Below, piece after piece: positions 1 through 10,997 of a stretch of 10,997 bases of DNA (positions within the stretch are counted from its first letter, which is position 1; each line of letters opens with the position of its first letter). The notes beneath the pieces were generated by a model, which made no database searches, was not told the DNA's origin, and was given only the letters and a program-made list of their open reading frames with translations. Source of the stretch: an uncultured Eubacteriales bacterium (GTDB taxonomy: Bacteria; Bacillota; Clostridia; Peptostreptococcales; Anaerovoracaceae); assembly GCA_902796875.1 (NCBI GenBank), contig CADBQT010000036.1, forward strand, positions 1 through 10,997. Direction: 5' to 3'. A program made the position numbers and the translations under genes.

Positions 1-779
1 CCGGTCGGGCCGGTCGCTTCTTCGTCCCGGGCCTCGTTGCCTTTCCATACTGCAAAGGCAGCGACCGGCGAGGTGCACCCGCCGTCCAACGCCCGAACGA
101 AGCTCCGCTCCGCCAGAGCGATCCGCCAGACATCGGCATCGTGGAAATCCTCCAGGCAGGAGACGTCGTAGCCCCGCCGGCCCTGGACCGCCAGTATCCC
201 CTGGCAGGCCGCCGGAAGCATCTCCTCGGGGGTGAAGATCCGGCTGATCCGGCTTTCCAGTCCGGCCCGCTTCAGACCGGCAACCGCCAACACCGTGGCG
301 CCGAACTCTCCGCTGTCCAGCTTGGAGAGCCTGGTCTGCACGTTGCCCCGGATGGGGGCGAACCGGGCTTCCGGATACATCTGGGAAAGCTGGAGCATCC
401 TCCGGTTGGAGGAACAGCCGATGGGCTTGTCCAGGTCGATTCCTGTGGCACCCTCAGGCAGGATCAGAGCGTCCCGGGGATCCTCCCGGGAGGATACGGC
501 CAGGATGGGCAGTTCCTCCGCAATGTCCATGGGCATGTCCTTCATGCTGTGCACCGTCAGGTCCGCCCGCCCGTCCATGAGGGCGATCTCCAGTTCCTTG
601 ATGAAGAGGCCCTTGCCGCCGATCTTGTCCAGATTCCGATCCAGGATCCGGTCGCCTTTGGTCTTCATGGTCACCAGTTCCACCTCGGCCTGGGGATCCC
701 ACGCCCGGATGGCGTCCATGACCATCTCCGACTGGATCACCGCCAGACGGCTCTCTCTGCTTCCCACTTTGATCTTCAT
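1..779 (-). CDS. hemC: Hydroxymethylbilane synthase (porphobilinogen deaminase), 3' end outside window
   Basis: Cytosolic enzyme that polymerises four porphobilinogen units into hydroxymethylbilane, the precursor of uroporphyrinogen III and so of siroheme and cobalamin. The first 259 residues are visible. The N-terminus MKIKVGSRESRLA matches the family start. HSMKDMP carries the catalytic Asp at residue 81. GGCT at residues 233-236 carries Cys235, the expected attachment point of the dipyrromethane cofactor. The family is about 300-310 residues, so only about 40-50 are missing beyond base 1. The ATG overlaps the stop of the upstream hemA fusion as ATGA (776-779), implying translational coupling, and a GGAA-type ribosome site lies just upstream. 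One oddity: the substrate-binding motif usually written GTSSLRR reads GCSSNRR at 121-127. Both arginines remain, so it is probably active. It is the last gene visible of the riboswitch-led operon. Confidence 0.96.
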   Translation of the reverse strand, partial: MKIKVGSRESRLAVIQSEMVMDAIRAWDPQAEVELVTMKTKGDRILDRNLDKIGGKGLFIKELEIALMDGRADLTVHSMKDMPMDIAEELPILAVSSREDPRDALILPEGATGIDLDKPIGCSSNRRMLQLSQMYPEARFAPIRGNVQTRLSKLDSGEFGATVLAVAGLKRAGLESRISRIFTPEEMLPAACQGILAVQGRRGYDVSCLEDFHDADVWRIALAERSFVRALDGGCTSPVAAFAVWKGNEARDEEATGPT

Positions 780-2362
780 TTGTATTCCTTTCCTTCCACC
801 ACCTGGCGGATGGCCGCCGCGGCGTTCTTCACGTTCCGGTGATCCGTTCCCCGGCCGACCAGCCCTGCGGTGAGCTCATCGCTCAAAGCCACCGCCGGGA
901 ACCAGAAGGTGGATTCATTTCTCGCATCGCAGACGTTGACCAGGATGTCCCGGTCCCGTCCGTCTTTGCCGATCTGCCGGTTGGTGTCCCGGTCGTCGGT
1001 GCAGGCCAGGATCATCCAGGCTCCGTCGGTCAGCTCCTGCCGGTAGGTGTCGCAGATCCACTCCACGGCGCCGCCGTCCGCCATGCGCTGAAGGCTTTCC
1101 GTCAGATCCCGGGACACGATGGTGATCCGGAATCCGAACTCCGCCAGGGTCATCACCCGGCGCTCGGCGATGTTTCCTCCTCCGATGACCACCACGGGCC
1201 GATCCAGGGTGTCGATAAACAGGGGGAAATACCGCCGCTCTCCCCGGTCCCGTTCAGGATCGGTGAGACGCTGGATGGACTCTTCCATCCGGCCCCGTTC
1301 CTTTTCCCAGCGGTGGAATTCGGTCACATAGCCTTCTACATACTCTGTCAGTTCTTCCTGCTGTTCATGGCGCAGCCGGTCCGGCCGGCCGCCGCTGATC
1401 TGGTCGATATCGCAACAGGTCACGCCGGGAAGATCCCCCACTTCGGGGGCCACGTCCCGGGGCACCGCCATGTCGATAAAGAGGCGGGGCATCGCAGGCC
1501 GGCGCGCGTCGTCGCCCGCCCCGCCGGCGGTCTCCGTCAGTTCCCGGGCGGTGACCACCACGTGGGGACTGGCGGTGGCGCTGACCACCGCATCGCAGTC
1601 GATCATCACCGCATATCGATCTGCATAGGGCACCGGCTCCACGCCCTCGGGGACTTCCGCCTCCCCGTGGCGATACCGGCGAAGGGTCATGAAAGTGCGA
1701 AGACCTTTTGCCGCCAACTGCCGGGCCACCCTCCGGCCGATGCTGCCGTTGCCGATGACCAGCACGGCCCGAACATCCGACTCCTCATCGACTCTTCTCA
1801 CGGCGCAGTCCGCCGTGGAGTCGTCGTGGATGTGAAGATCCACGTGGGTGCGGATCTCTTTGCCGGCGGTGATCCCAAGTCTGAACACCGTGTTCAGCAC
1901 ACCATCGGAAGCGCCGCGCCGGCGGGCATCCCGCACCGCATCCCCCACCTGGCTGATGATCTGGCTGTCTCCCCAAAGCCGGGACCGGGCCCCCGCCGTA
2001 AGAAGGCAAAGATGACGCAGCACGTCGTCCCCCTGAAGGGTCTGCTGGAGATGAGCGTGCCGCTCGGGCTCAAGCCCGTGGACCCGGCACAGGACCTGAT
2101 AGGGGTCGATGGCCGCGCCGGCCGCCGGATCTTCCTCCGGCGCGCAGCCGGCCGAGGCATCCTCACCCAGGGACAGATACAGTTCCGTCCGGTTGCAGGT
2201 ATTGATCAGCACGGCGCCGCGAACGGCCGCCTCTGCCTTTGCCCAGGCGTAGATCTCCTCCGTCTGAGTCTCGTCGCAGGCAAAGAGTTCCCGTTCCGAC
2301 ACGTCGGCCCGATGGTGGTCGATGGTGGTCATGATGATGTTGGTCATCGTGTTTTCCGTCAT
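776..2362 (-). CDS. hemA: Fusion: glutamyl-tRNA reductase + precorrin-2 dehydrogenase (Met8/SirC-like) domain
   Basis: A 528-residue two-enzyme protein. Residues 1 to about 365 are glutamyl-tRNA reductase, which reduces Glu-tRNA to glutamate-1-semialdehyde with NADPH. Seen: TCNRTELY with catalytic Cys56, WGDSQIISQV at 130-139 (usual form GExQIxGQV), a Rossmann motif VIGNGSIGRR at 202-211, and FIDMAVPRDVAPEV at 295-308. Residues about 377-528 match the NAD-binding part of siroheme synthases: VVIGGGNIAERR at 391-402, CTDDRDTN at 454-461, and NVCDA with Asp479, the position equivalent to the essential Asp104 of CysG. This domain would oxidise precorrin-2 to sirohydrochlorin. It is only about 150 residues and lacks most of the helical C-terminal region of full Met8/CysG proteins, so metal insertion probably depends on the CbiK of the same operon. 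The reductase dimerisation region is also short. The start is the ATG of a TAATG overlap with the upstream stop, with GGAG nine bases before it. I recall similar HemA fusions from clostridia. Confidence 0.93.
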   Translation of the reverse strand: MTENTMTNIIMTTIDHHRADVSERELFACDETQTEEIYAWAKAEAAVRGAVLINTCNRTELYLSLGEDASAGCAPEEDPAAGAAIDPYQVLCRVHGLEPERHAHLQQTLQGDDVLRHLCLLTAGARSRLWGDSQIISQVGDAVRDARRRGASDGVLNTVFRLGITAGKEIRTHVDLHIHDDSTADCAVRRVDEESDVRAVLVIGNGSIGRRVARQLAAKGLRTFMTLRRYRHGEAEVPEGVEPVPYADRYAVMIDCDAVVSATASPHVVVTARELTETAGGAGDDARRPAMPRLFIDMAVPRDVAPEVGDLPGVTCCDIDQISGGRPDRLRHEQQEELTEYVEGYVTEFHRWEKERGRMEESIQRLTDPERDRGERRYFPLFIDTLDRPVVVIGGGNIAERRVMTLAEFGFRITIVSRDLTESLQRMADGGAVEWICDTYRQELTDGAWMILACTDDRDTNRQIGKDGRDRDILVNVCDARNESTFWFPAVALSDELTAGLVGRGTDHRNVKNAAAAIRQVVEGKEYK

Positions 2363-3495
2363 TATTGTTTTCTCCGTCTTTTCACCAGGAAGTTGAGCAG
2401 ACCTCCGACCAGGATGATGGCCAGCGCCAGGATCAGCACATTGATGGCCGCCTCCTGGGGGATCTGGTTCTTGTCCCCGATGGTGTCCTCATAAAAAGTC
2501 AGCCGGTACTCGATCTCCACCGGATGACCCATGGCCGTGGTGTCCGCCGTCACCGTGAAGCTTTCGTCCATGACGGGCACCGGGATGGTGAAGGTGGAAT
2601 TCCCTCCGTCCGTGGTCTCGTTCAGGTACTTCTTCCCGCCGACGATCATGTAATCGTAGTAGGTACTGCTCCAAAGCAGCCGGGCATAAGCCTTCCCGTC
2701 TTTCACCGTCAGCCACGTGGGCGAGGTCACGGAGGCCCGTCCGCTGCCGCCGGTCATGTGGACCTGGATGGAGTACTCCCCGTCTTCCACGTTCACCTTG
2801 GCCGGCTCCACGGAAATGGTCCCTTCGTCCACGTCCTCGCTGCCTTTGGCCTGCTGATCGATCTCCGCCTGCTTCAGGGTGTTGGTCCCCTTGGCCTCGT
2901 CGTAAAACTCCAACGCCTCCCGGATCCGTTCGTAGTCCGGCAGGGTGATCTTCAGGGCGTCCTCCGGCAGAGAGCCGGCGCTAAAGAGGATCTTCCGATC
3001 GTACCATTTTTTCTTTCGCTTGCTGTAGGCGGCGCAGTCCACGGGGGTATCCAGAGCCTCCACCTTCATGGTGAAGGTGCTCCGCCCCTCCCGGTTCTTC
3101 GGTTCGATGTAGTCTTCCAAAGGCGCCGCGGCCGCTTCCTCCGCGGTCCCGGGATAGATGAACTTGTAGCTGGCGCTGGACAGGGTCATCTGGGCGGTCA
3201 TCTTGCCGTCCTTCACCGTGAGGACGGTCTTCTCCACGTGGAAGAACGTGGAGCTGCTCTCGGTGATGACCTCGTACCGGCCGTCCTTCACGTCCCGCCC
3301 GTACACCGGGAGCATGCCGTAGCTTCCGATGTCCACGGACTTGGCCGTCTCCCCTTCGGAGGCCACCTTGTCGTAGCCCTCCGCTCCAAAGGCAGGGGCC
3401 GCCGGGGCGCCAAGACCCAACGCAAACACCAGGGCGATCACTGCCGCGGTCACCCGGCATAAGGTTTTTGTCTTTTGTGTCCCTCGTCTGATCAT
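2362..3495 (-). CDS. Membrane-anchored surface protein with two beta-type modules
   Basis: A 377-residue exported protein of unknown function. It has a basic N-terminus, a hydrophobic signal segment (about 16-36, cleavage likely near AFGA at 35-38), a large extracellular part, and a single C-terminal transmembrane span (about 350-370) followed by KRRRKQ as cytoplasmic stop-transfer. Module A (about 70-173) begins DGRYEV, contains FFHVEK, LTVKDGKMTAQM and YPGTAEEA, and ends KWYDRKI. Module B (about 237-334) begins DGEYSIQV and contains GGSGRASV, WSSTYYDYMIV, STFTIPV and ADTTAMGHPVEIEY. A helical linker separates them. The same two modules in the same order form the lipoprotein at 6846-7760, so the two are paralogues. 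The DG-Y start and W-Y-D-hydrophobic end of module A loosely recall NEAT (heme-binding) domains, but I could not establish homology. It sits 67 nt after cbiK and overlaps hemA by one base. Its position suggests a role in tetrapyrrole or cobalt capture at the surface; that is inference. The start has only a weak ribosome site. Confidence 0.85.
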   Translation of the reverse strand: MIRRGTQKTKTLCRVTAAVIALVFALGLGAPAAPAFGAEGYDKVASEGETAKSVDIGSYGMLPVYGRDVKDGRYEVITESSSTFFHVEKTVLTVKDGKMTAQMTLSSASYKFIYPGTAEEAAAAPLEDYIEPKNREGRSTFTMKVEALDTPVDCAAYSKRKKKWYDRKILFSAGSLPEDALKITLPDYERIREALEFYDEAKGTNTLKQAEIDQQAKGSEDVDEGTISVEPAKVNVEDGEYSIQVHMTGGSGRASVTSPTWLTVKDGKAYARLLWSSTYYDYMIVGGKKYLNETTDGGNSTFTIPVPVMDESFTVTADTTAMGHPVEIEYRLTFYEDTIGDKNQIPQEAAINVLILALAIILVGGLLNFLVKRRRKQ

Positions 3496-3562
3496 CGATC
3501 CGTCGCTCTTCCTCGATTTATTTCGCTCTCTTATCTCTTCGCTCTGCAGCCTGTGTCGTCGT

Positions 3563-4474
3563 TTATTCTACCGGCCGGGCTTCCTGGCCGTGGCGGACGA
3601 ACATTCGGCGGACGCCTTCGTAGGCGCCCAGTCCTTTTTTGACGGCCTCTACTGTGTAGCCGGCTGCCTTCATCCGGTTCATCCAGGAGTCGGGATCTTC
3701 TCCCGCCATATCCTTTACGGCGTGCTCCCCGGCCACGATCATGAGGGGGGCCAGGGTGGTGGCGGCTTCACCGGTGGAGCCTCCAGCAGGGCCGGCAGCT
3801 CTGTCGCCGCCGCTGAGCTTTCCCAGCACGTCCTCCAGATCCGGGGTCCCTTCCACCGTGCCCACGAAGGCACGGGTCCAACCCAGCCGGTGGAAGCTCT
3901 CCTCCAGCCGAACGTAGATCTCGTTGGCGGAGGGCTTGTCCGCCGAGCCGTGGCCCATGAGGACCAGGGCCCGGTCGCCTCGCGCGCCAGGAGCATCCGA
4001 CGCTTCCGAAGCATCCGCCGCTTCCAAAGCACCCGGCGCGCCCAGGTATTCCTCCCCCAGGATCTTCGCCAGTTCCTCCAGATCCCTTTCCTCATCCAGA
4101 AGAGGGCGACTGGCGGTGATGCATTTGAACTGACCTGCCTTTGCGCGAAGGAGCTCGGCGAGCCGGTCGTTTTCTCCGCCACCGATCATATGGGTGGGGA
4201 CCACCAGCACATCGTCGATCCCCTGATCCACCATCCGGTCCAGGGCTTCCTCCGCCGTATCGACGTGGATCCCGTCCCGGGCGTCGAGGCGGCGGATGAT
4301 CATTTTGCTTGTCCATCCCCGGAAGATCTTCCGGTCCGGGAATGCCTTTGCGAGAGACTCCTCGATGGCCCCGATGGTCTCTTCACAGGTCCGATTGTGG
4401 GTCGTTCCGAAGCTGACGACCAGCAGTCCTTTTCCGCCCGCAGTGTTGTTCATATCGTTTCTCATCCCGTCCAT
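3563..4474 (-). CDS. cbiK: Cytosolic sirohydrochlorin cobaltochelatase (CbiK family)
   Basis: Inserts Co2+ into sirohydrochlorin (factor II), the committing step of the anaerobic cobalamin route, in the cytosol. The 303-residue protein has the family opening GLLVVSFGTTHNRT (16-29), then VVPTHMIGGGEND, LMGHGSAD with His175, FVGTVEGTPD with Glu208, and VAGEHAVKDMAGED with His251. This is the His-Glu-His metal-binding set known from Salmonella CbiK (His145, Glu175, His207). The chosen ATG at 4474 has AGGAGG six bases upstream; an in-frame GTG at 4489 overlaps the permease gene and has no such site. There is no signal peptide. Two low-complexity inserts stand out: an Ala/Asp/Ser/Glu stretch at about 148-167, encoded partly by an 18-bp tandem repeat, and a Gly/Ala-rich stretch at about 222-240. 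The canonical second His of GHGTxH is Asp here. The gene starts 11 nt after the permease. A lipoprotein paralogue lies at the head of the same operon. Confidence 0.94.
   Translation of the reverse strand: MDGMRNDMNNTAGGKGLLVVSFGTTHNRTCEETIGAIEESLAKAFPDRKIFRGWTSKMIIRRLDARDGIHVDTAEEALDRMVDQGIDDVLVVPTHMIGGGENDRLAELLRAKAGQFKCITASRPLLDEERDLEELAKILGEEYLGAPGALEAADASEASDAPGARGDRALVLMGHGSADKPSANEIYVRLEESFHRLGWTRAFVGTVEGTPDLEDVLGKLSGGDRAAGPAGGSTGEAATTLAPLMIVAGEHAVKDMAGEDPDSWMNRMKAAGYTVEAVKKGLGAYEGVRRMFVRHGQEARPVE
3993..4028. repeat. Imperfect 18-bp tandem repeat inside cbiK
   Basis: Two adjacent 18-base units, 3993-4010 and 4011-4028, differ at two positions (plus-strand unit gcatccgMcgcttccRaa). A third, decayed start (gcacccg) follows at 4029. 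The repeat is in frame and encodes the Ala/Ser/Asp/Glu-rich insert of the cytosolic CbiK, between the substrate half of the protein and the GHG metal motif. It looks like a replication-slippage expansion that is tolerated because it falls in a loop. Confidence 0.8.
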
Positions 4475-4485
4475 CTCGACCCTCC

Positions 4486-5217
4486 TCACAGATTCTTCTT
4501 CTTGTAGATGAAGGCCACCGAGATCAGGGAGAAGGCGATCAGGTAGAGGATCAGGATAAGGATCCCCATGGGATCGAAACCGATCCCCTCGGAGATGCTC
4601 CGGATCATGCCGCTGGTCTGGGACAGGGGCAGGGCTGCCACCACCTGCCGGATCCCCATGGGCATGGACTCGGTGGAGAAAAAGGTATTGCAGAGGAAAG
4701 ACATGGGGGTGATGATGTAGGCCGTATAGCGGGGCGCATCGGTATAGCTTTTGGCCAGGAATGACAGGACCAGGGCCAGGGTGGCAAACACCGTTCCGTT
4801 GAGGAACATGATGAGCACGGACCAGCCGTTAAAGATCAGCCCCGTCCGGATGGGAAGAGTCAGAAGCAGGATCATCCCACCGGAATACATTCCCCGCAGG
4901 GCCCCTCCGATGACCTGCCCCAGGATGAACTGCCACAGGGGCGTGGGCGAGACCATCACCTGATCCAGGGCCTTCTCGTAGAGCCGCTGGACGCTCATGT
5001 TCTGAGCCACGGCGCCGAAGCTTCCCGTCATGGTGGACAGGGCCACGATCCCGGGGATCAGAAAATTAAGGTAGGGCTCACCGTGGGAGGTGGTCTGGAT
5101 CCCCAGCCCGAACACGATCAGGTACATGAGGGGGGTGATCACCGCCGCCAGGGTGATCTTATAAAAGTCCCGCCGGAACTCTCTCCATTTTTCCCAAAGT
5201 ACGGCAAGGATACCCAT
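4486..5217 (-). CDS. ABC-2 type transporter permease
   Basis: Integral membrane subunit of an ABC transporter, 243 residues, the usual length of the DrrB/NodJ-like ABC-2 permeases. Six hydrophobic spans are visible, at about 18-40, 50-72, 97-123, 132-155, 164-182 and 217-238. The segment following NMSVQRLYEKALDQVMVSP, with GQVIGGALRG, is the conserved family core between the second and third spans. The ATG overlaps the stop of the ATPase gene by one base (TAATG), so the two are made together and form one transporter. Transporters of this family mostly export lipids, drugs or polysaccharides, unlike the BtuCDF or ECF importers normal for B12 or cobalt uptake. The substrate cannot be read from sequence. 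Its place between cbiL and cbiK suggests a tetrapyrrole, metal or envelope-related cargo (inference). Confidence 0.93.
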   Translation of the reverse strand: MGILAVLWEKWREFRRDFYKITLAAVITPLMYLIVFGLGIQTTSHGEPYLNFLIPGIVALSTMTGSFGAVAQNMSVQRLYEKALDQVMVSPTPLWQFILGQVIGGALRGMYSGGMILLLTLPIRTGLIFNGWSVLIMFLNGTVFATLALVLSFLAKSYTDAPRYTAYIITPMSFLCNTFFSTESMPMGIRQVVAALPLSQTSGMIRSISEGIGFDPMGILILILYLIAFSLISVAFIYKKKNL

Positions 5218-6059
5218 TACTTCTGATCGATTCTCCTTCCCAGTTTTTCCACGAAAACGTCCTCCAGGGTGGTGCTGCGCAGGGACGCGTCTTCACCTGC
5301 CTGAGCCAGGTACTCGATGGCTTCTTCCCTCCGGGCGAAGTACCGGCTTTTGATCTGCTCCTCTCCGGTCTCGTCCACCGCAAATGCACCCAGTTCCTCG
5401 ATGAGATTGGCCGGGGTATCGATCACGTTCAGTTCCCCTTTGTTCATCAGGGCCACCCGCTCACAGAGAGACTGGGCCTCATCGATGTAGTGGGTGGTCA
5501 GAAGGATGGTGATCCCCTGCCCGTGAAGCTGACGGAGCAGGTTCCACATCTGCCGCCGGGAGATGGCATCCATCCCCGCCGTAGGCTCGTCCAAAAGCAA
5601 AATCTCCGGTTCGGTCATCAGCGCCCGGCAGATCATCAGCTTTCGCTTCATGCCTCCGGAAAGGTGACGGACCACCCGATGATGATAATCGGAAAGGCCG
5701 GCGAACTCCAGAAGTTCCCGGCTCTTTTCCCGAATCTCCTTCTTCGGCATGTAATAGAGTCTTCCCTGATACTCCATCACCTCATCCATGGTCATGTCCT
5801 GACGCATGGAATACTCCTGGGTGATGACGCTGATCTTTCGCTTCTCCGACGAGGCCTTCCGATCAAGCTTTTTCCCGTCGATGCGGACCTCCCCCGCCGT
5901 GGGGAGGAGCACCGTGGAAAGCATGCTGATGGTGGTGGTCTTGCCGGCCCCGTTGGGTCCCAGCAGACCGAAGAATTCCCCCGTCTCGATGGTCAGATCC
6001 ACGTTATCCACCGCCGTGAAGTCTCCGTATTTTTTTGTCAGACCCCGAAGTTCGATCAT
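5217..6059 (-). CDS. ABC transporter ATP-binding protein (DrrA/CcmA-like)
   Basis: Cytosolic ATPase partner of the ABC-2 permease that follows it, 280 residues. All motors are intact: Walker A GPNGAGKTT (34-42), Q-loop Gln81 in ITQEYSMRQDMT, signature LSGGM (133-137), Walker B ILLLDE (153-158), D-loop in AGMD, and H-loop His190 in TTHYIDEA. A C-terminal extension of about 60 residues after position 215 ends TTLEDVFVEKLGRR, the typical tail of the daunorubicin-resistance type ATPases. The start MIELRGLTKKYG is standard and has AGGAG upstream. A small GC hairpin (6073-6086) directly precedes this ribosome site. It lies 35 nt after cbiL and overlaps the permease gene by one base. Confidence 0.96.
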   Translation of the reverse strand: MIELRGLTKKYGDFTAVDNVDLTIETGEFFGLLGPNGAGKTTTISMLSTVLLPTAGEVRIDGKKLDRKASSEKRKISVITQEYSMRQDMTMDEVMEYQGRLYYMPKKEIREKSRELLEFAGLSDYHHRVVRHLSGGMKRKLMICRALMTEPEILLLDEPTAGMDAISRRQMWNLLRQLHGQGITILLTTHYIDEAQSLCERVALMNKGELNVIDTPANLIEELGAFAVDETGEEQIKSRYFARREEAIEYLAQAGEDASLRSTTLEDVFVEKLGRRIDQK

Positions 6060-6072
6060 CCGATTCTCCTGC

Positions 6073-6086
6073 CCGGGCAGTCCCGG
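6073..6086 (-). promoter_or_regulatory. Small GC hairpin before the ATPase ribosome site
   Basis: In the transcript, CCGGG-ACTG-CCCGG can form a 5-bp stem with a 4-nt loop, two bases from the AGGAG at 6066-6070. An overlapping perfect 12-base palindrome (6069-6080) would instead include the ribosome site. It could modulate ATPase translation relative to cbiL, but short GC hairpins are common in GC-rich DNA, so the functional reading is weak. Confidence 0.25.
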
Positions 6087-6094
6087 AGTTCCCC

Positions 6095-6796
6095 TTATTT
6101 GTCTTCCCGATCCCGGGCGATGATCAGGGAGAAGTATCCCGCTTCATCGGGGATCTCCTCCACGTCGCTATATACCTTCTCGTTTTCCATGCCGCAGTTT
6201 TCCACCATGAACACGTCCTTGCCGCTGGCCCGAAGCAGGTCTTTGACCTCCTTCATGTGGCTGCCCGACTTCATGAGCACGTAGCTGCCCGGATGGCTCA
6301 GTTTGGTGTGGAGCTTGTGGGCCGCCGGCACCACATACATGGACTGGTTCCAAAGGGTGATGGGAAGGTTTCCCCTTGCCGCCGCCGCGCAGAAGGAGGG
6401 GATGCCGCTGACCAGAGCCGTCTCGTATCCATCCTCGTCCATCAGCTTCTGCAGATAGGAAAAGGTGCAGTAAATCGTCGGATCTCCCAGGGTCAGATAG
6501 ACCACGTTTTTCCCCTGGTCCAGCTGTTCCTCGATGAGGTCCGCCCCCTTGCGGTGGTTCCTCCGCTGCTCTTCCACGTCCATGGTCATGGGCATGTAGA
6601 TGGGGATCAGTTCCTTGTCCGCAAGCTCCGGCACCGCCTGGACAGCGATCTGATAGGCCACCGATTCCCGGGCGACTTTTCCCGGCACGGCGATGCAGTC
6701 GTTCTCCCGGATCAGGCGAACGGCCTTCATGGTCATCAGCTCCGGATCTCCCGGGCCCACGCCTACTCCGTAGGCGATTCCTCTTCCTTCTTTCAT
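6095..6796 (-). CDS. cbiL: Cobalt-factor II / precorrin-2 C20-methyltransferase
   Basis: SAM-dependent methyltransferase that adds the C20 methyl group to cobalt-factor II, directly after cobalt insertion in the anaerobic cobalamin pathway; cytosolic. The 233 residues match the family length. Seen: the N-terminal tetrapyrrole-methylase motif GVGVGPGDPEL (10-20), LTLGDPTIYCTFSYL (101-115), and VSGIPSFCAAAA (129-140), with MVENCGMENE near the C-terminus. GDPTIYCTF is characteristic of CbiL/CobI among the pathway's methylases. The start at 6796 has AGAGGAG just upstream. An in-frame ATG 13 codons earlier (6835) lacks a good ribosome site and adds residues absent from the family. It lies between the two-module lipoprotein (49 nt upstream) and the ABC ATPase. 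Confidence 0.95.
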   Translation of the reverse strand: MKEGRGIAYGVGVGPGDPELMTMKAVRLIRENDCIAVPGKVARESVAYQIAVQAVPELADKELIPIYMPMTMDVEEQRRNHRKGADLIEEQLDQGKNVVYLTLGDPTIYCTFSYLQKLMDEDGYETALVSGIPSFCAAAARGNLPITLWNQSMYVVPAAHKLHTKLSHPGSYVLMKSGSHMKEVKDLLRASGKDVFMVENCGMENEKVYSDVEEIPDEAGYFSLIIARDREDK

Positions 6797-6845
6797 GGTT
6801 CTCCTCTTCGGTCTGTTCTCTCCGGCCGGCTCCAAAGGCCGCCGC

Positions 6846-7760
6846 TTACTCTACCAGCGTACACACCAGGGTGTACTCGATCTCGTGGGCCTTGCTCATG
6901 GCCGTGGTGTCGGCGATGACCTTGAAGGCCTCGTTCAGATTCTTCACCGGGATCTCGAAGGTGGAATTTCCCGACCTGTTCACCGGCTCATACTTTTCCC
7001 CGTCCACCAGCATGTAGTCGTAGTTGGGGCTGGACCAGGTGACGGTCAGGGTGCCTTTGCCACCCTCCACCTTCATCTTCGCCGGGGTGTCGATGGAGGC
7101 CCGTCCGGTGCCTCCCTCCATGGCGATGTTCACCTGATACTCTCCGTCCTCCATAGCGTCCACGGCCTTGGCTTCTCCCGCAGCGCTCTCGGCGTCGGCG
7201 TTTTCATCTCCTGCTTCAGCCTCTGCGCCATCCTCTGCCTTTGCATCGGAGGCCGCAGCGCTTCCCGGGACCGCATCTCCCGGCTCCGGGTTGGACACGG
7301 TCACCTTGTGGTCGTACCAGTTGCCCTTGGTCCCGATGAGGGCCACGTCGAACTCCTGGTCCAGAGCGGGCACGGGGATGTCGAACCCGTAGACCTCCAT
7401 CTCATAGCCGTCGCTGTAGACCACCTTGTCCTTGGTGGGCTCGATCAGCTGGGCCCCGTCCTTGGCGGCGTCTTCCGCCGTGCCCGGGAAGAGGTTGGTG
7501 ATCTTCTTGGACGCCAGGGAGACGTGGATGGTCATCTTGCCGTCCTTGACCGTCAGCAGGCCTTTGCCTTCGTTGGCCTCGTTGACGTGAAACATGTTGC
7601 TGTCTGTGGTAAAGTCCGCCACGTAGGTGCCGTCGGCGATCCCCGGATCCGGCGTTTCGGTCCCTTCCTCCGTGCCGGAGCCGCAGCCGGCCAGCCCGAA
7701 GGCAAGCAGGATCCCCAGCACCATGACCGGGATGGCCAGTCCGAATCTTCTCTTACTCAT
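6846..7760 (-). CDS. Lipoprotein with two beta-type modules
   Basis: A 304-residue lipoprotein of unknown function. A basic start and hydrophobic segment lead to the lipobox LAGC with Cys26, so it should be lipid-anchored outside the membrane. Module A (about 42-155) begins DGTYVAD, contains MFHVNEAN, LTVKDGKMTIHV, FPGTAEDAA and FDIPVPALD, and ends NWYDHKV. An acidic Ala/Glu/Asp linker (about 157-203) follows. Module B (about 204-300) begins DGEYQVNI and contains GGTGRASI, WSSPNYDYMLVDGEKY, STFEIPV and ADTTAMSKAHEIEY. It shares both modules, in order, with the anchored protein at 2362-3495 but uses a lipid anchor and has no C-terminal span. From memory such modules recur in Firmicutes surface proteins, sometimes next to iron- or heme-type transporters; I cannot verify that here. 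GGAGAG lies upstream of the ATG. A terminator-like hairpin separates it from the exported CbiK gene. Confidence 0.87.
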   Translation of the reverse strand: MSKRRFGLAIPVMVLGILLAFGLAGCGSGTEEGTETPDPGIADGTYVADFTTDSNMFHVNEANEGKGLLTVKDGKMTIHVSLASKKITNLFPGTAEDAAKDGAQLIEPTKDKVVYSDGYEMEVYGFDIPVPALDQEFDVALIGTKGNWYDHKVTVSNPEPGDAVPGSAAASDAKAEDGAEAEAGDENADAESAAGEAKAVDAMEDGEYQVNIAMEGGTGRASIDTPAKMKVEGGKGTLTVTWSSPNYDYMLVDGEKYEPVNRSGNSTFEIPVKNLNEAFKVIADTTAMSKAHEIEYTLVCTLVE

Positions 7761-7772
7761 GATCTCTCCTTA

Positions 7773-7788
7773 CCGGTAAAAATACCGG
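7773..7788 (-). promoter_or_regulatory. Short hairpin abutting the lipoprotein ribosome site
   Basis: The transcript can fold CCGGTA-UUUU-UACCGG, a perfect 6-bp stem, just before the AAGGAG of the gene at 6846-7760. Its first four stem bases (7785-7788) are shared with the larger hairpin at 7785-7815, so the two cannot form fully at the same time. It also takes up the U-run of that hairpin. The arrangement could act as an alternative fold that spares the terminator. Confidence 0.4.
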
Positions 7789-7815
7789 CCGGCTCCCCAA
7801 GGGGCGGCCAGCCGG
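7777..7815 (-). terminator. Intercistronic terminator-like hairpin after the exported CbiK gene
   Basis: In the minus-strand transcript, CCGGCUGGC and the facing GCCGGCCGG pair, with one wobble, then CCC pairs with GGG across a bulge, giving a long GC-rich stem (7785-7815). UAUUUUUA follows (7777-7784). This has the form of an intrinsic terminator inside the operon. It would allow the first gene to be expressed more strongly than those downstream, or it could stabilise a processed 3' end. Confidence 0.55.
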
Positions 7816-7856
7816 CACGTTTATCATTACCTGACGTCGCTGTTTATATGGATTCT

Positions 7857-9083
7857 TTATTTGTTGATCACAGCGCCAGCGTGCTCGACGTAGAGCTTCT
7901 GGATGTCTGCGATCCGGCCCATGCCTTCGATCTGGCAGGAGACGTTTTCCTTGCCAAAGCCTTTGCCCGTGTCGACCGGCGCATCAGCACCCTCGACCTC
8001 GAACTCACCGCCGTTGGCGAAACCATAGTACCAGCTTCCCTCTTCATCGGCAGCCATGTCGTTGTTGGCGTGGTCACCGGCCACCAGCATCAGGGGACGC
8101 AGGACGACCTTGGTGTAGCCTGCCTCTTCCACAGCCTTCTTCACCTGGGGGAATGCGGTCTCTTCCGGAATGCCTTCAACGGTCCCGACGAAGACGTTCT
8201 TGTATCCCAGTTCTTCCATCTGCTTCTGCATCTGGCTGTAGGTCACGCTGGCTTCGTGGGACGTTCCGTGGCCCATGAGGACCAGAGCCGTTCCGTCTTC
8301 CGCCATGGCGTCGATGGAATCTGCGCCGGCAACTTTGACGGCCTCATCGACCACCGCCTTGGCAGCCGCTTCCTTATCCGCATTGATGACGGAAGCATCC
8401 GCGCCGACCTCGCCCAGCATGGGCTCTGCGATCTCGACGGACTCGAACTTATCCTTTACCTTTTCCACTGCTGCTACCAGCTCATCATACTCGGCGCCGT
8501 GCATCAGGTGAGTCGGCTGGACCACCAGGGTCTTGACGCCGTTGTCGACGGCTCTCTGGAGAGCCTGATCCATGTTGTCGATCTTCTCGCCGTCACGAGC
8601 CTGGATGTGGTTGATGATGATCTGCGCCGTGAACGCTCTTCTCACGGACCAGTCGGGATAGGCTTCGATCAGCGCCTTTTCCACGCCGCCGATGTCCTGG
8701 ACTCTGCTGTCGTTAAAGGACGTGCCGAAGCTGACCACCAGCAGTTCCTTTTCGCCGATCTCGTCGCCGTTCAAGGGATCGTCCTTGGACGCATCGCCGG
8801 TGTCATCGCCGAAGTATCCCGGATCATCCAGCTGCTCCTTCTGCTCGTCGGTCAGAGCGTCATAAGCCGCCTTGGCCGCCTCGCACTGGGCATCCGTGTC
8901 ATCGGTCCTCTCCTGGACCTGGATCGCCTCGATGGCTTCGTTGCATGCCGCCACCGCATCTGCGCCATTATCCGCCGGTTCCGCCTCTTCCGAGTCGCCG
9001 GAGCCGCCGCAGCCGGCCAGAGTCAGGCCGAGAGCAAACACCAGAGCCAGGCAGAGGACAATGAGTTTTCTGTAGTTTTTCAT
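7857..9083 (-). CDS. cbiK: Exported CbiK-like cobaltochelatase, lipoprotein
   Basis: A 408-residue lipoprotein with a complete CbiK fold outside the membrane. A hydrophobic signal segment leads to LAGC with Cys25. After an acidic spacer, residues about 43-88 form a predicted helical domain containing AAYDALTDEQKEQL, a pattern I associate with helical repeats of Firmicutes surface proteins. The CbiK part starts at ELLVVSFGTSFNDSR (113-127) and keeps VVQPTHLMHGAEYD, LMGHGTSHEAS with His272 and His276, FVGTVEGIPE with Glu303, and VAGDHANNDMAADEEGSW with His338, the full His-Glu-His metal set. The chosen ATG (9083) has AGGAGG seven bases upstream and opens a standard signal sequence; upstream in-frame ATGs at 9089 and 9125 fit worse. 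Exported CbiK proteins are known from Desulfovibrio (periplasmic, heme-binding), so metal or heme binding, scavenging or chelation at the surface are all possible. It is the first gene after the cobalamin riboswitch. Confidence 0.93.
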   Translation of the reverse strand: MKNYRKLIVLCLALVFALGLTLAGCGGSGDSEEAEPADNGADAVAACNEAIEAIQVQERTDDTDAQCEAAKAAYDALTDEQKEQLDDPGYFGDDTGDASKDDPLNGDEIGEKELLVVSFGTSFNDSRVQDIGGVEKALIEAYPDWSVRRAFTAQIIINHIQARDGEKIDNMDQALQRAVDNGVKTLVVQPTHLMHGAEYDELVAAVEKVKDKFESVEIAEPMLGEVGADASVINADKEAAAKAVVDEAVKVAGADSIDAMAEDGTALVLMGHGTSHEASVTYSQMQKQMEELGYKNVFVGTVEGIPEETAFPQVKKAVEEAGYTKVVLRPLMLVAGDHANNDMAADEEGSWYYGFANGGEFEVEGADAPVDTGKGFGKENVSCQIEGMGRIADIQKLYVEHAGAVINK

Positions 9084-9125
9084 GATCATACCTCCTGTGT
9101 GATAAATAATATGGTCGCAGAACAC

Positions 9126-9152
9126 AAAAGGCCTCGCAAACGGTGCAAAGCC
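9126..9152 (-). terminator. Intrinsic terminator, expression platform of the cobalamin riboswitch
   Basis: The transcript folds GGCUUUGCA-CCGUU-UGCGAGGCC, a 9-bp stem with two G-U pairs and a 5-nt loop (9130-9152), followed by UUUUGUGUU. It lies about 100 nt after the aptamer and 43 nt before the first start codon. CCUCAUGAGG just upstream offers alternative pairing for the GAGG of the stem. This fits a riboswitch that stops transcription when cobalamin is bound. The rest of the leader between 9153 and 9254 holds no gene that I can see. Confidence 0.65.
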
Positions 9153-9254
9153 TCATGAGGTATCATTCAGTATTACATCCGCCAGTGACTCGTGGCCGGG
9201 ACGAACGGACCCCCTTCCTGCTGGCAGGCCGGCGCTCTCATTCCCCCTCTATTC

Positions 9255-9497
9255 CCGACAGGCAGGTTTCCTGACTTACGGCCTTCGCTTCGTCCGCCTT
9301 CCCAGGATCTCTCCCAGTGGCTTCGGGCTGCGCCGGCGCCTTTGCCTTTGCCTCCCGGATGGACTCCGCCCCCGCCGCATACAGTGACGAGTTCGCGCAG
9401 GTTTCTCACCTGCTTCCCTATTACCCCCGCATCCGGACTCCCACCCTTTCGGAATCTCCCGAACCGTCCGGGAATACGGATGTGCGGCACCTGTCGG
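9255..9497 (-). ncRNA. Cobalamin (AdoCbl-type) riboswitch aptamer
   Basis: The conserved elements of the cobalamin riboswitch are present in order in the minus-strand transcript. GGGAAGCAGGTGAGAAACC (9400-9418) is the GAA-C-GGTGNGAA-CC core hairpin. GCCACTG lies at 9315-9321. The B12 box AAGTCAGGAAACCTGCC lies at 9261-9277. The closing helix P1 is a perfect 8-bp pairing of CCGACAGG (9490-9497) with CCTGTCGG (9255-9262), which fixes the ends. A promoter lies immediately upstream and a terminator downstream. It should repress the whole operon, from the exported CbiK gene to hemC, when cobalamin is plentiful. Confidence 0.97.
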
Positions 9498-9516
9498 TAT
9501 TTGTATTCGCAAAGGC

Positions 9517-9546
9517 ATTATAGCACAAAGCCCCCATCCCGTTCAA
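9517..9546 (-). promoter_or_regulatory. Extended -10 promoter of the riboswitch operon
   Basis: On the minus strand, TTGAAC (9541-9546) and TATAAT (9517-9522, full consensus) are 18 bases apart, with TGC before the -10 giving an extended -10 element. Transcription would begin near 9510, about a dozen bases before helix P1 of the riboswitch, which is exactly where a leader promoter is expected. Confidence 0.85.
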
Positions 9547-9583: not shown

Positions 9584-9820
9584 CTACTCGTCCAGTCTTT
9601 TGATCTTTTTCTTCTCCCCCTGTTTCCCCTTCTGTCTGGCCTTTTTCTTCTCTTCCTCTGCCTTTGCTTTCGCCTCTTCCTCGGCCCGTTTCTCCTCGGC
9701 CGCCGCCTTGTCGGCCTTTCGCTGCTGGAAGGCCGCCTTAAAGAATCCTATGGCCACCGAGAGAAGGGCAAAGGCCAGAAGAAACACGATCACATAACCC
9801 AGCATGGCAAACTTGCTCAT
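9584..9820 (-). CDS. Small single-span membrane protein with charged coiled-coil tail
   Basis: A 78-residue protein with no recognised family. Residues about 4-30 form one hydrophobic span (GYVIVFLLAFALLSVAIGFF). The rest is a Lys/Glu/Ala-rich helix with repeats of the AEEEAKAK type, ending in a very basic GKQGEKKKIKRLDE. The pattern suggests an N-terminally anchored protein with a cytoplasmic coiled-coil tail. The start at 9820 has GGAGGAGA immediately upstream; a longer reading from 9892 begins inside the promoter region and is not supported. Composition is typical of real small membrane proteins rather than chance GC-rich frames. It is divergent from the murE-like gene and precedes the riboswitch operon on the same strand, but a separate promoter for that operon argues for an independent role. 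Confidence 0.75.
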   Translation of the reverse strand: MSKFAMLGYVIVFLLAFALLSVAIGFFKAAFQQRKADKAAAEEKRAEEEAKAKAEEEKKKARQKGKQGEKKKIKRLDE

Positions 9821-9844
9821 ATTCTCCTCCATTACGGTCTTTGA

Positions 9845-9873
9845 TTGAAATGGTTGGATATGTAGTGTATGAT
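9845..9873 (+). promoter_or_regulatory. Promoter for the murE-family gene
   Basis: TTGAAA (9845-9850) and TATGAT (9868-9873) each match consensus at 5 of 6 positions with an optimal 17-base spacer, in an AT-rich island of otherwise GC-rich DNA. The predicted start is near 9880, about 33 bases before the ATG at 9913. Confidence 0.8.
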
Positions 9874-9892
9874 ATGTAGGGAATTTTTGCAA
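9864..9892 (-). promoter_or_regulatory. Candidate minus-strand promoter for the small membrane protein
   Basis: On the minus strand, TTGCAA (9887-9892) and TACACT (9864-9869) stand 17 bases apart, each with 4 of 6 consensus matches. The -10 shares bases with the -10 of the plus-strand promoter, so the two could not be occupied at once. It is weaker than the plus-strand promoter and only a candidate. Confidence 0.35.
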
Positions 9893-9912
9893 GTGAAAGG
9901 ACGTATTGAATA

Positions 9913-10997
9913 ATGAAATTTGCTCAGTTATTTGAGTCTCTTAAATATGAGGTCCTGACCGGACCCGAAGCCGGTACGGGCGTTACCTGCGACCTTCAGA
10001 TCGACGACCTGGTCATGGACTCCAGGAAGGTGTCCCCCGGATCCCTCTTTGTGTGCATCCAGGGAGCCGCTTTCGACGGCCACAACTTCGCTGCCGATGT
10101 GGCAAAGGCTGGGGCCGCCGTCATCGTCATCGACCGGGATGTGGACCTTGACGCCATCGCCGAAGCCGGGAAAGAGGTTGCCGATAAAGAAGGCCTTTCC
10201 GGTGCTTCCGGTCCCGTGGTGGTTCGGGTAGAGAACAGCCGCTACGCCCTGGCCTGCCTTTCCGCGGCCTGGTTCGGCCACCCCGCCCGGGAGCTGACCA
10301 CCATCGGGATCACCGGCACCAAGGGAAAGACCACCACCACCTACATGGTCAAGTCCATTCTGGAGCGGACCGGCCACAAGGTGGGACTCATCGGCACCAT
10401 CGAAGCCATCGTCGGAGAAAAGTCCTACCCCGCTCCCAACACCACCCCCGAATCCTATACGGTCCAGAAGTATTTCCGGGAGATGGTGGATGCGGGCTGC
10501 GACTGCGTGGTCATGGAGGCTTCCTCACAGGGGTTCATGCTCCACCGGACGGCTGGGTTCATCTTCGACTACGGCATCTTCACCAACATCGAATCGGATC
10601 ACATCGGTCCCAACGAACACCGGGACTTCGATCACTATATGGCCTGCAAGAAGATGCTCCTCTCCCAGTGCCGGATCGGCATCGTCAACCGGGACGATCC
10701 CCACTTTGAGGAGATCATCGACGGCCACACCTGTGAGCTGGAGACCTACGGGCTCTCTCCGGAGGCGGACCTTAGGGCGGAGAACATGCAGCTGGTTTCC
10801 CATCCCGGATACCTGGGCATCTCCTACCAGGTGAGGGGTCTGATGGACTTCCCTGTGGAGATCGACATCCCTGGCAAGTTCAGCGTCTACAATTCCCTGA
10901 CGGCCATCGCCATCTGCCGCCACTTCCAGGTGAGCCCTGAGGACATCACCGCGGCCCTGGCGGACATCCGGGTCAAGGGAAGAGTGGAGCTCATCGA
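9913..10997 (+). CDS. murE: MurE-family UDP-MurNAc-tripeptide synthetase, 3' end outside window
   Basis: Mur ligase that adds the third amino acid to UDP-MurNAc-L-Ala-D-Glu in peptidoglycan precursor synthesis; cytosolic and ATP-dependent. 361 residues are visible of roughly 480-500. Domain 1 (about 1-125) has the MurE uridine-binding type sequence with VMDSRKVSPGSLFVCIQG. The central ATPase domain starts at TTIGITGTKGKTTT (129-142, P-loop), followed by PNTTPES, VMEASSQGF and FTNIESDHIGPNEH. The Lys that is carbamylated in Mur ligases is probably Lys246 in YMACKK. The motif that separates diaminopimelate from lysine addition lies beyond the window, so the amino-acid specificity is not settled. 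The ASSQ and DHIGPNEH wording differs from housekeeping MurE (often SSHAL and DHLDYHG), which hints at a clostridial paralogue. The start has a somewhat distant AAAGGA and a good promoter 40 bases upstream. Confidence 0.92.
   Translation, partial: MKFAQLFESLKYEVLTGPEAGTGVTCDLQIDDLVMDSRKVSPGSLFVCIQGAAFDGHNFAADVAKAGAAVIVIDRDVDLDAIAEAGKEVADKEGLSGASGPVVVRVENSRYALACLSAAWFGHPARELTTIGITGTKGKTTTTYMVKSILERTGHKVGLIGTIEAIVGEKSYPAPNTTPESYTVQKYFREMVDAGCDCVVMEASSQGFMLHRTAGFIFDYGIFTNIESDHIGPNEHRDFDHYMACKKMLLSQCRIGIVNRDDPHFEEIIDGHTCELETYGLSPEADLRAENMQLVSHPGYLGISYQVRGLMDFPVEIDIPGKFSVYNSLTAIAICRHFQVSPEDITAALADIRVKGRVELI

Follow-up and report, generated by a model that had tools for sequence, protein, structure and literature searches.

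The operon and its encoded proteins

The DNA analysed here (the window) is a stretch of 10,997 nucleotides from an uncultured Eubacteriales bacterium with relatives among gut species, and makes up the complete contig C36 of a metagenome-assembled genome (MAG; 1.39 Mb, 267 contigs, 91.6% complete). On its minus strand, a cobalamin riboswitch is followed by LpCbiK, NEAT_A, cbiL, an ABC ATPase, an ABC-2 permease, cbiK, NEAT_B, hemA-sirC and hemC, in that order (Table 1). Protein families were assigned with Pfam and NCBIfam. Gene content, gene order and the riboswitch were as described in an earlier note on this DNA, which had seen a single riboswitch-led unit at 2362..9510. This was borne out, as the nine genes are set apart by eight gaps of -4 to +96 nt, a spacing like that of a single transcript; hemA-sirC and hemC, which lie beyond that interval, belong to the same unit. 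As the contig goes no further than the window, hemC is incomplete and the 3' end of the operon falls outside the view.

Table 1. Features of the window, in the direction of the operon.
Feature	Positions	Strand	Evidence
Promoter-like site TTGAAC-18-TATAAT, just upstream of the aptamer	9517..9546	-	10/12 consensus positions; consensus match only
Cobalamin riboswitch aptamer	9244..9463	-	RF00174, covariance model 64.0 bits (gathering 31.5), E 2.8e-14
Terminator-like hairpin between aptamer and first gene, possible expression platform	9128..9154	-	11 pairs then TTTTGTGTT; consensus match only
LpCbiK, CbiK-fold lipoprotein, 408 aa from ATG 9083, lipobox LAGC	7857..9083	-	PF06180 218.4 bits (cut-off 26.2)
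NEAT_A, lipoprotein (LAGC), two NEAT-type modules	6846..7760	-	PF05031 27.8 bits (below cut-off 32.8)
CbiL, cobalt-factor II / precorrin-2 C20-methyltransferase	6095..6835	-	TIGR01467 185.6 bits (cut-off 163.25)
ABC ATPase, DrrA/NodI-like	5217..6059	-	PF00005 123 bits; TIGR01188 261.5 bits (below cut-off 312.45)
ABC-2 permease, 243 aa	4486..5217	-	PF01061 68.1 bits (cut-off 26.9)
CbiK, sirohydrochlorin cobaltochelatase, cytosolic, no signal sequence	3563..4489	-	PF06180 214.8 bits (cut-off 26.2)
NEAT_B: signal sequence, NEAT, helical linker, NEAT, C-terminal membrane helix	2362..3495	-	PF05031 42.3 bits (cut-off 32.8)
HemA-SirC fusion: glutamyl-tRNA reductase and precorrin-2 dehydrogenase-like domain	776..2362	-	PF05201, PF01488, PF13241; TIGR01035, TIGR01470
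HemC, hydroxymethylbilane synthase, truncated by contig end	3..779	-	TIGR00212 273.9 bits

The LpCbiK frame is open from GTG 9125; the start is most likely ATG 9083 instead, judging by the AGGAGG that precedes it. Neither CbiK protein reached the 400-bit cut-off of the NCBIfam equivalog for sirohydrochlorin cobaltochelatase CbiK (NF047852), with scores of 175.8 for LpCbiK and 184.0 for the cytosolic protein. The solved sequences nearest to LpCbiK were Salmonella CbiK (1qgo), FetB (9b86) and a chelatase (2xvx), the last of which we take to be the periplasmic CbiK of Desulfovibrio vulgaris. The catalytic histidine pair in the C-terminal half of Salmonella CbiK, given as His145 and His207 in an excerpt of PMC7689651, lies in two motifs that are both kept in LpCbiK and in the cytosolic CbiK of the window.

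The two anchored two-module proteins of the earlier note are NEAT proteins by their profile and fold matches. NEAT_A and NEAT_B are 37% identical; NEAT_A matched the A2 profile, of which it is itself one row, with an E value of 4.7e-80, and the predicted structure of NEAT_B (predicted local distance difference test score 88.7) showed the NEAT beta-sandwich, with fold matches to NEAT. In heme-binding NEAT domains, a YxxxY motif supplies the axial tyrosine. In 61/61 sequences, module 1 had K, R, E, T or N at the corresponding position, and module 2 had V, L, H or I. The register is secure for module 1 only, where a stretch without gaps could be aligned with IsdX2 NEAT5; for module 2 it was set through the internal repeat only. 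A canonical heme NEAT was accordingly rejected, though another ligand may serve. Two methionines of NEAT_B, Met283 (60/61 sequences) and Met322 (59/61), are nearly invariant and could be metal ligands. Methionine metal ligands occur in Shp.

The ATPase and permease genes overlap by one base and encode an ABC-2 transporter with its partner ATPase. The permease belongs to the NodJ/DrrB/YadH-type group, whose members are mostly exporters, with all matches under the curated subfamily cut-offs. Among solved structures searched at E 0.1, none was related to the permease and none to the binding protein of a BtuC-like importer.

Terminator-like sites in the window were not above chance (8, against a mean of 9.7 in shuffles) and the leader at 9290-9075, folded as a whole, was no better than shuffles (z -0.93), so the hairpin suggests an expression platform rather than identifying one.

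Recurrence of the gene set in corrin-making Bacillota

Loci were picked by permease similarity alone, as the best 80 of 263 relatives from a named-genome scan with the permease alignment; the other 183 were left unexamined. Training of the gene-map profiles used gene clusters from the same 80 loci, and all 78 NEAT-cluster genes also matched NEAT_A or NEAT_B of the window by BLAST. A NEAT gene was present in 79/80 loci. Neighbourhoods were counted in the 49 loci with full 4-kb flanks on both sides, 31 being dropped for short flanks. Within 4 kb of the permease, NEAT was found in 48/49 (the exception being L115), CbiL in 44, CbiK in 30, SirC in 26, any tetrapyrrole gene in 46 and FecCD in three. 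The usual order was cbiL-ATPase-permease-(cbiK)-NEAT-sirC-hemC-cobA/hemD-hemB, and the same set was present in the named isolates Mobilibacterium timonense, Baileyella intestinalis, Eubacterium infirmum and Bilifractor porci. Since the order is retained in other species, the gene set of the window goes beyond chance.

Genomes were then compared in two sets, 197 of the window's family (f1) and 160 of a second family, that of Bilifractor. Permease relatives of 66-81% identity were present in 12 of the 196 other f1 genomes, with one more at 42%; the permease was absent from all four other sampled genomes of the window's genus. CbiL was found in 12/13 permease-bearing f1 genomes compared to 47/184 genomes lacking it (p 2e-6); the one exception, G117, still shows the end of a cbiL where its contig breaks off. 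For the Bilifractor family, the figures were 9/9 and 63/151 (p 6e-4). Permease carriers are thus corrin makers, which argues against plain scavenging of heme or corrinoids. According to the earlier note, the functional link would fail if the envelope genes recurred outside any B12, heme or cobalt context or among random neighbours; the link survived these comparisons, and the tie between envelope genes and corrin synthesis is non-random.

The carriers also differed from other corrin makers of f1 in the cobalt transport protein CbiM. Short CbiM (330-residue split) was present in 0/13 permease-bearing genomes compared to 22/47 other corrin makers (p 0.001), and CbiM within 30 kb of CbiL in 0/13 compared to 16/47 (p 0.013). 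Any CbiM gave a weaker contrast (4/13 and 31/47, p 0.03); the long frames are presumably of the nickel type. In a wider set covering 50 of the 80 loci, short CbiM occurred in 2/50 permease-bearing genomes, in one of them as a gene split over contig ends. The window's genome, at its 91.6% completeness, had no CbiM (PF01891) match.

A tree of CbiK proteins was built from 68 rows, taken from the 80 loci and the window. Nineteen of the 20 lipobox-labelled rows fell in a single supported group of 21 (97/91) that included two edge-cut rows; L085_1012 fell outside. Branches were short within the lipoprotein group and long for cytosolic CbiK, and identity to the nearest row was 88% for LpCbiK of the window and 58% for its cytosolic CbiK. 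On labels alone the tree needs four changes, with two labels doubtful (L121_3 and L106_1 start at the locus edge). By pattern, both histidine motifs were present in 17/20 lipobox-bearing rows, the second was missing in two and one row was cut. LpCbiK matches of at least 63% identity were found in 32/50 permease-bearing genomes. A tandem pair of LpCbiK-like matches was also seen inside one long frame region (L042:15548-17215).

The earlier note had proposed scoring how often a cobalamin riboswitch precedes these genes. It was found in 34/80 permease loci, at 37 sites. A text pattern recovered 24 loci, with zero matches in reversed sequence, and an Rfam rescan of 45 pattern-negative loci added ten that the pattern had missed; four further loci lie on contigs already scanned without a match as L035-L037 and L041, judging by their equal lengths, and seven short loci were outside the Rfam scan. 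The first recognised gene 3' of the riboswitch was CbiK-type at 20 sites, cbiL at eight, hemA at four, hemB at two and cobA/hemD at one, with none within 1.1 kb at two. B12 control of these loci is frequent and often directed at the CbiK gene, not general. The claim that the module is made only when cobalamin is scarce relies on the riboswitch and is too broad for the set as a whole.

Relatives of the NEAT proteins were also present without the ABC-2 pair. A2-profile matches were found in 49/197 f1 genomes, and CbiL in 38 of these 49 compared to 21/148 A2-negative genomes (p 5e-16). In at least 22 f1 genomes, an A2 match lay within 20 kb of CbiL, and 11 of these genomes had no permease. One cluster of genome G072 (L134) joins a CbiK surface protein, two NEAT-like proteins, a binding protein, FecCD, an ATPase and cbi genes with no ABC-2 pair, and genome G177 (L133) has LpCbiK, NEAT_A and CbiL, again without the pair (cbi genes named by eye in both). 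In the Pfam scan, the window had no FecCD permease. The genome has one, on contig C183, where a binding protein, a BtuC-like permease and a corrinoid-type ATPase come first, with CbiD, CbiF, CbiG and CbiH. Several genomes had a BtuC/FecCD-type importer, either in the cbi cluster of the module or in another one. The contrast that the earlier note drew with normal, importer-bearing B12 operons is hence a weak one, given C183 in this genome and the mixture in G072. Large CbiK proteins were observed beside NEAT-like proteins in the cbi clusters at L134:15034-16941 (636 residues) and L132:15639-17342 (568 residues); both have an N-terminal export signal by eye and the L134 protein also matches fibronectin III.

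Proposed role and alternatives

The gene set is real and conserved, it is a new combination of known families, and its probable kind is tetrapyrrole/cobalt acquisition. The open-licence PubMed Central (PMC) literature held no paper joining the NEAT domain with CbiK and cobalamin, with the cobalamin riboswitch, or with cobalt and riboswitch, none joining CbiK, heme, lipoprotein and NEAT, and none joining near iron transporter with cobalamin biosynthesis. The module is probably, if only just, an extracytoplasmic cobalt/tetrapyrrole supply arm that serves anaerobic corrin synthesis specifically; what it delivers for making B12 may be cobalt or a ring precursor. Features read directly from sequence support this reading: the predicted riboswitch, the early corrin enzymes, LpCbiK with its histidine pair, two anchored tandem-NEAT proteins, the ABC-2 pair and their recurrence in corrin-making Bacillota. 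The earlier suggestion of cobalt or tetrapyrrole capture agrees with the proteins being NEAT and with the distribution of CbiM.

At low cobalamin, the module would be expressed. Outside the membrane, the NEAT proteins and LpCbiK would then bind and process a tetrapyrrole or the cobalt form of one, and the ABC-2 pair together with NEAT_B would carry a tetrapyrrole-type compound across the membrane. Captured cobalt or cobalt-ring would feed the internal CbiK/CbiL step, and the BtuC/FecCD-type importer seen in the cbi clusters of several genomes would be the way in. The Km of CbiK for Co(II) with sirohydrochlorin is given as 0.79 nM in an excerpt of PMC10206600. With such a Km, a surface CbiK could plausibly scavenge cobalt if its tetrapyrrole sits outside.

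Several points weigh against the supply-arm reading. Substrate, transport direction, binding and joint function are what we infer. LpCbiK matches of at least 63% identity were missing from 18/50 permease-bearing genomes, 46/80 loci had no riboswitch found (seven of these being the short loci outside the Rfam scan), and L075 (with a weak riboswitch of 47.8 bits), L101 and L125 carry the core of ABC-2 and NEAT genes but had no tetrapyrrole gene recognised in their 4-kb flanks. Some long A2-positive proteins outside the module had no Pfam NEAT match and are therefore NEAT-like by the A2 profile alone. The genomes are related, and the genome sets overlap and share descent, so the p values are too small. 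The 330-residue split for short CbiM was set after the data were seen, and open-frame length is a mere proxy. Lastly, short CbiM was not rarer among carriers of the Bilifractor family (2/9 compared to 25/63, p 0.47), and the other CbiM measures there were not significant (any CbiM, 3/9 and 33/63; within 30 kb of CbiL, 0/9 and 13/63); in the two positives, G304 and G366, CbiL and the permease were on different contigs. The presence and absence patterns suggest replacement of CbiM by the module, clearly in f1 for short CbiM and not significantly in the Bilifractor family.

Corrinoid salvage, with NEAT and LpCbiK as cobalamin/cobinamide receptors feeding a BtuCDF-like importer and the ABC-2 pair as an accessory, has some chance of being right but is unlikely. 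B12 uptake is commonly under cobalamin riboswitches, which suits the control seen here, and both the importer genes opening the C183 cluster and the joining of CbiK, NEAT-like and importer genes in G072 would be expected. However, the permease is restricted to corrin makers, and non-makers should need salvage too. The rings indicated by the CbiK fold and by the link with cbiL, sirC and hemC are early, uncontracted ones, and FecCD is rare near the permease.

A tetrapyrrole cobaltophore cycle would be a more specific form of the supply arm and is tentative, being on balance rather unlikely. Made at low cobalamin, sirohydrochlorin would leave via the ABC-2 pair, which is the boldest step of the cycle, be loaded with sub-nanomolar cobalt by surface LpCbiK, be relayed by NEAT_A and NEAT_B, re-enter through a FecCD/BtuC-type importer and go straight to CbiL. 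One molecule would then be both a biosynthetic intermediate and a metal carrier.

Isd-type heme or porphyrin scavenging, where NEAT takes heme, LpCbiK strips or swaps the metal and the iron or ring is used, is quite unlikely. Surface-anchored tandem NEAT proteins with a helical linker, along with the fold matches, do resemble the Isd relay (IsdB/IsdH, IsdX1/X2). In contrast to Isd, the axial heme tyrosine is apparently missing at the aligned place (securely for module 1), a cobalamin riboswitch stands in place of iron control (no Fur-box search was made), corrin enzymes share the operon, the adjoining permease is ABC-2 and not FecCD, and carriers are corrin makers.

It is very unlikely that the ABC-2 pair expels surplus or toxic ring intermediates while NEAT_B and LpCbiK buffer at the surface. 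The exporter-like permease group would agree with this, and the ATPase and permease families are those of NodIJ, DrrAB and YadGH; unlike those systems, the pair scores below the curated subfamily cut-offs and is conserved only in corrin context. Expression at low cobalamin is ill suited to detoxification, and a surface cobaltochelatase would be left unexplained. Chance or binning, by which unrelated envelope genes came to lie beside cbi genes, is hardly credible and already contradicted: although the window amounts to one contig of 11 kb and the permease is absent from its sampled congeners, the same set occurs in named isolates, NEAT accompanies the permease in all but one of the 49 loci, and the GC content of the window (0.608) is like that of two other contigs of the MAG (0.600 and 0.608).

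For the favoured supply arm, the nearest parallel is the Desulfovibrio B12 element, which in an excerpt of PMC545781 governs cbiK-cbiL and btuCDF. The periplasmic CbiK of D. vulgaris and FetB/IhtB of Porphyromonas gingivalis share the exported CbiK fold and are sequence relatives of LpCbiK; the passages available describe them without NEAT proteins or an ABC-2 pair. CbiMNQO and the predicted Cbt transporters are likewise partners of anaerobic corrin synthesis in a B12 operon context, the predicted Cbt types being mostly from B12-synthesis genomes, many of them without known cobalt transporters (PMC2667541, in part). They differ in belonging to unrelated protein families, and CbiM is lacking here; the ABC-2 pair may still be one of CbtC-G. 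The BtuFCD importer is also found in cbi clusters, including C183; it is FecCD-type, whereas the module is ABC-2.

The question addressed is the cobalt source of early-cobalt-insertion B12-making anaerobes without CbiMNQO. The set recurs in many animal-gut Bacillota, and B. intestinalis, M. timonense and B. porci are culturable carriers. If the supply-arm reading is true, NEAT proteins would have a range beyond heme that takes in cobalt or corrin precursors, extracytoplasmic CbiK proteins would gain a role, and gut and rumen B12 producers would have an added marker.

Neighbouring genes and other observations

The HemA-SirC fusion had no match to the glutamyl-tRNA reductase dimerisation domain in the Pfam scan. 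A DUF819 membrane protein (PF05684) was present in 12 loci (e.g. L060:15237-16445), usually directly after hemB. The second cobalamin riboswitch of the window's genome (G000:C53:2512-2768, locus L049, 62.8 bits) has a MetH-reactivation-like gene on one side and a MoxR-DUF58-transglutaminase-like operon on the other, both named by eye. Upstream of the operon, on the plus strand at 9584-10995, a small membrane protein (9584-9892, weak OAD-gamma match) is followed by a gene that by eye is MurE-like.

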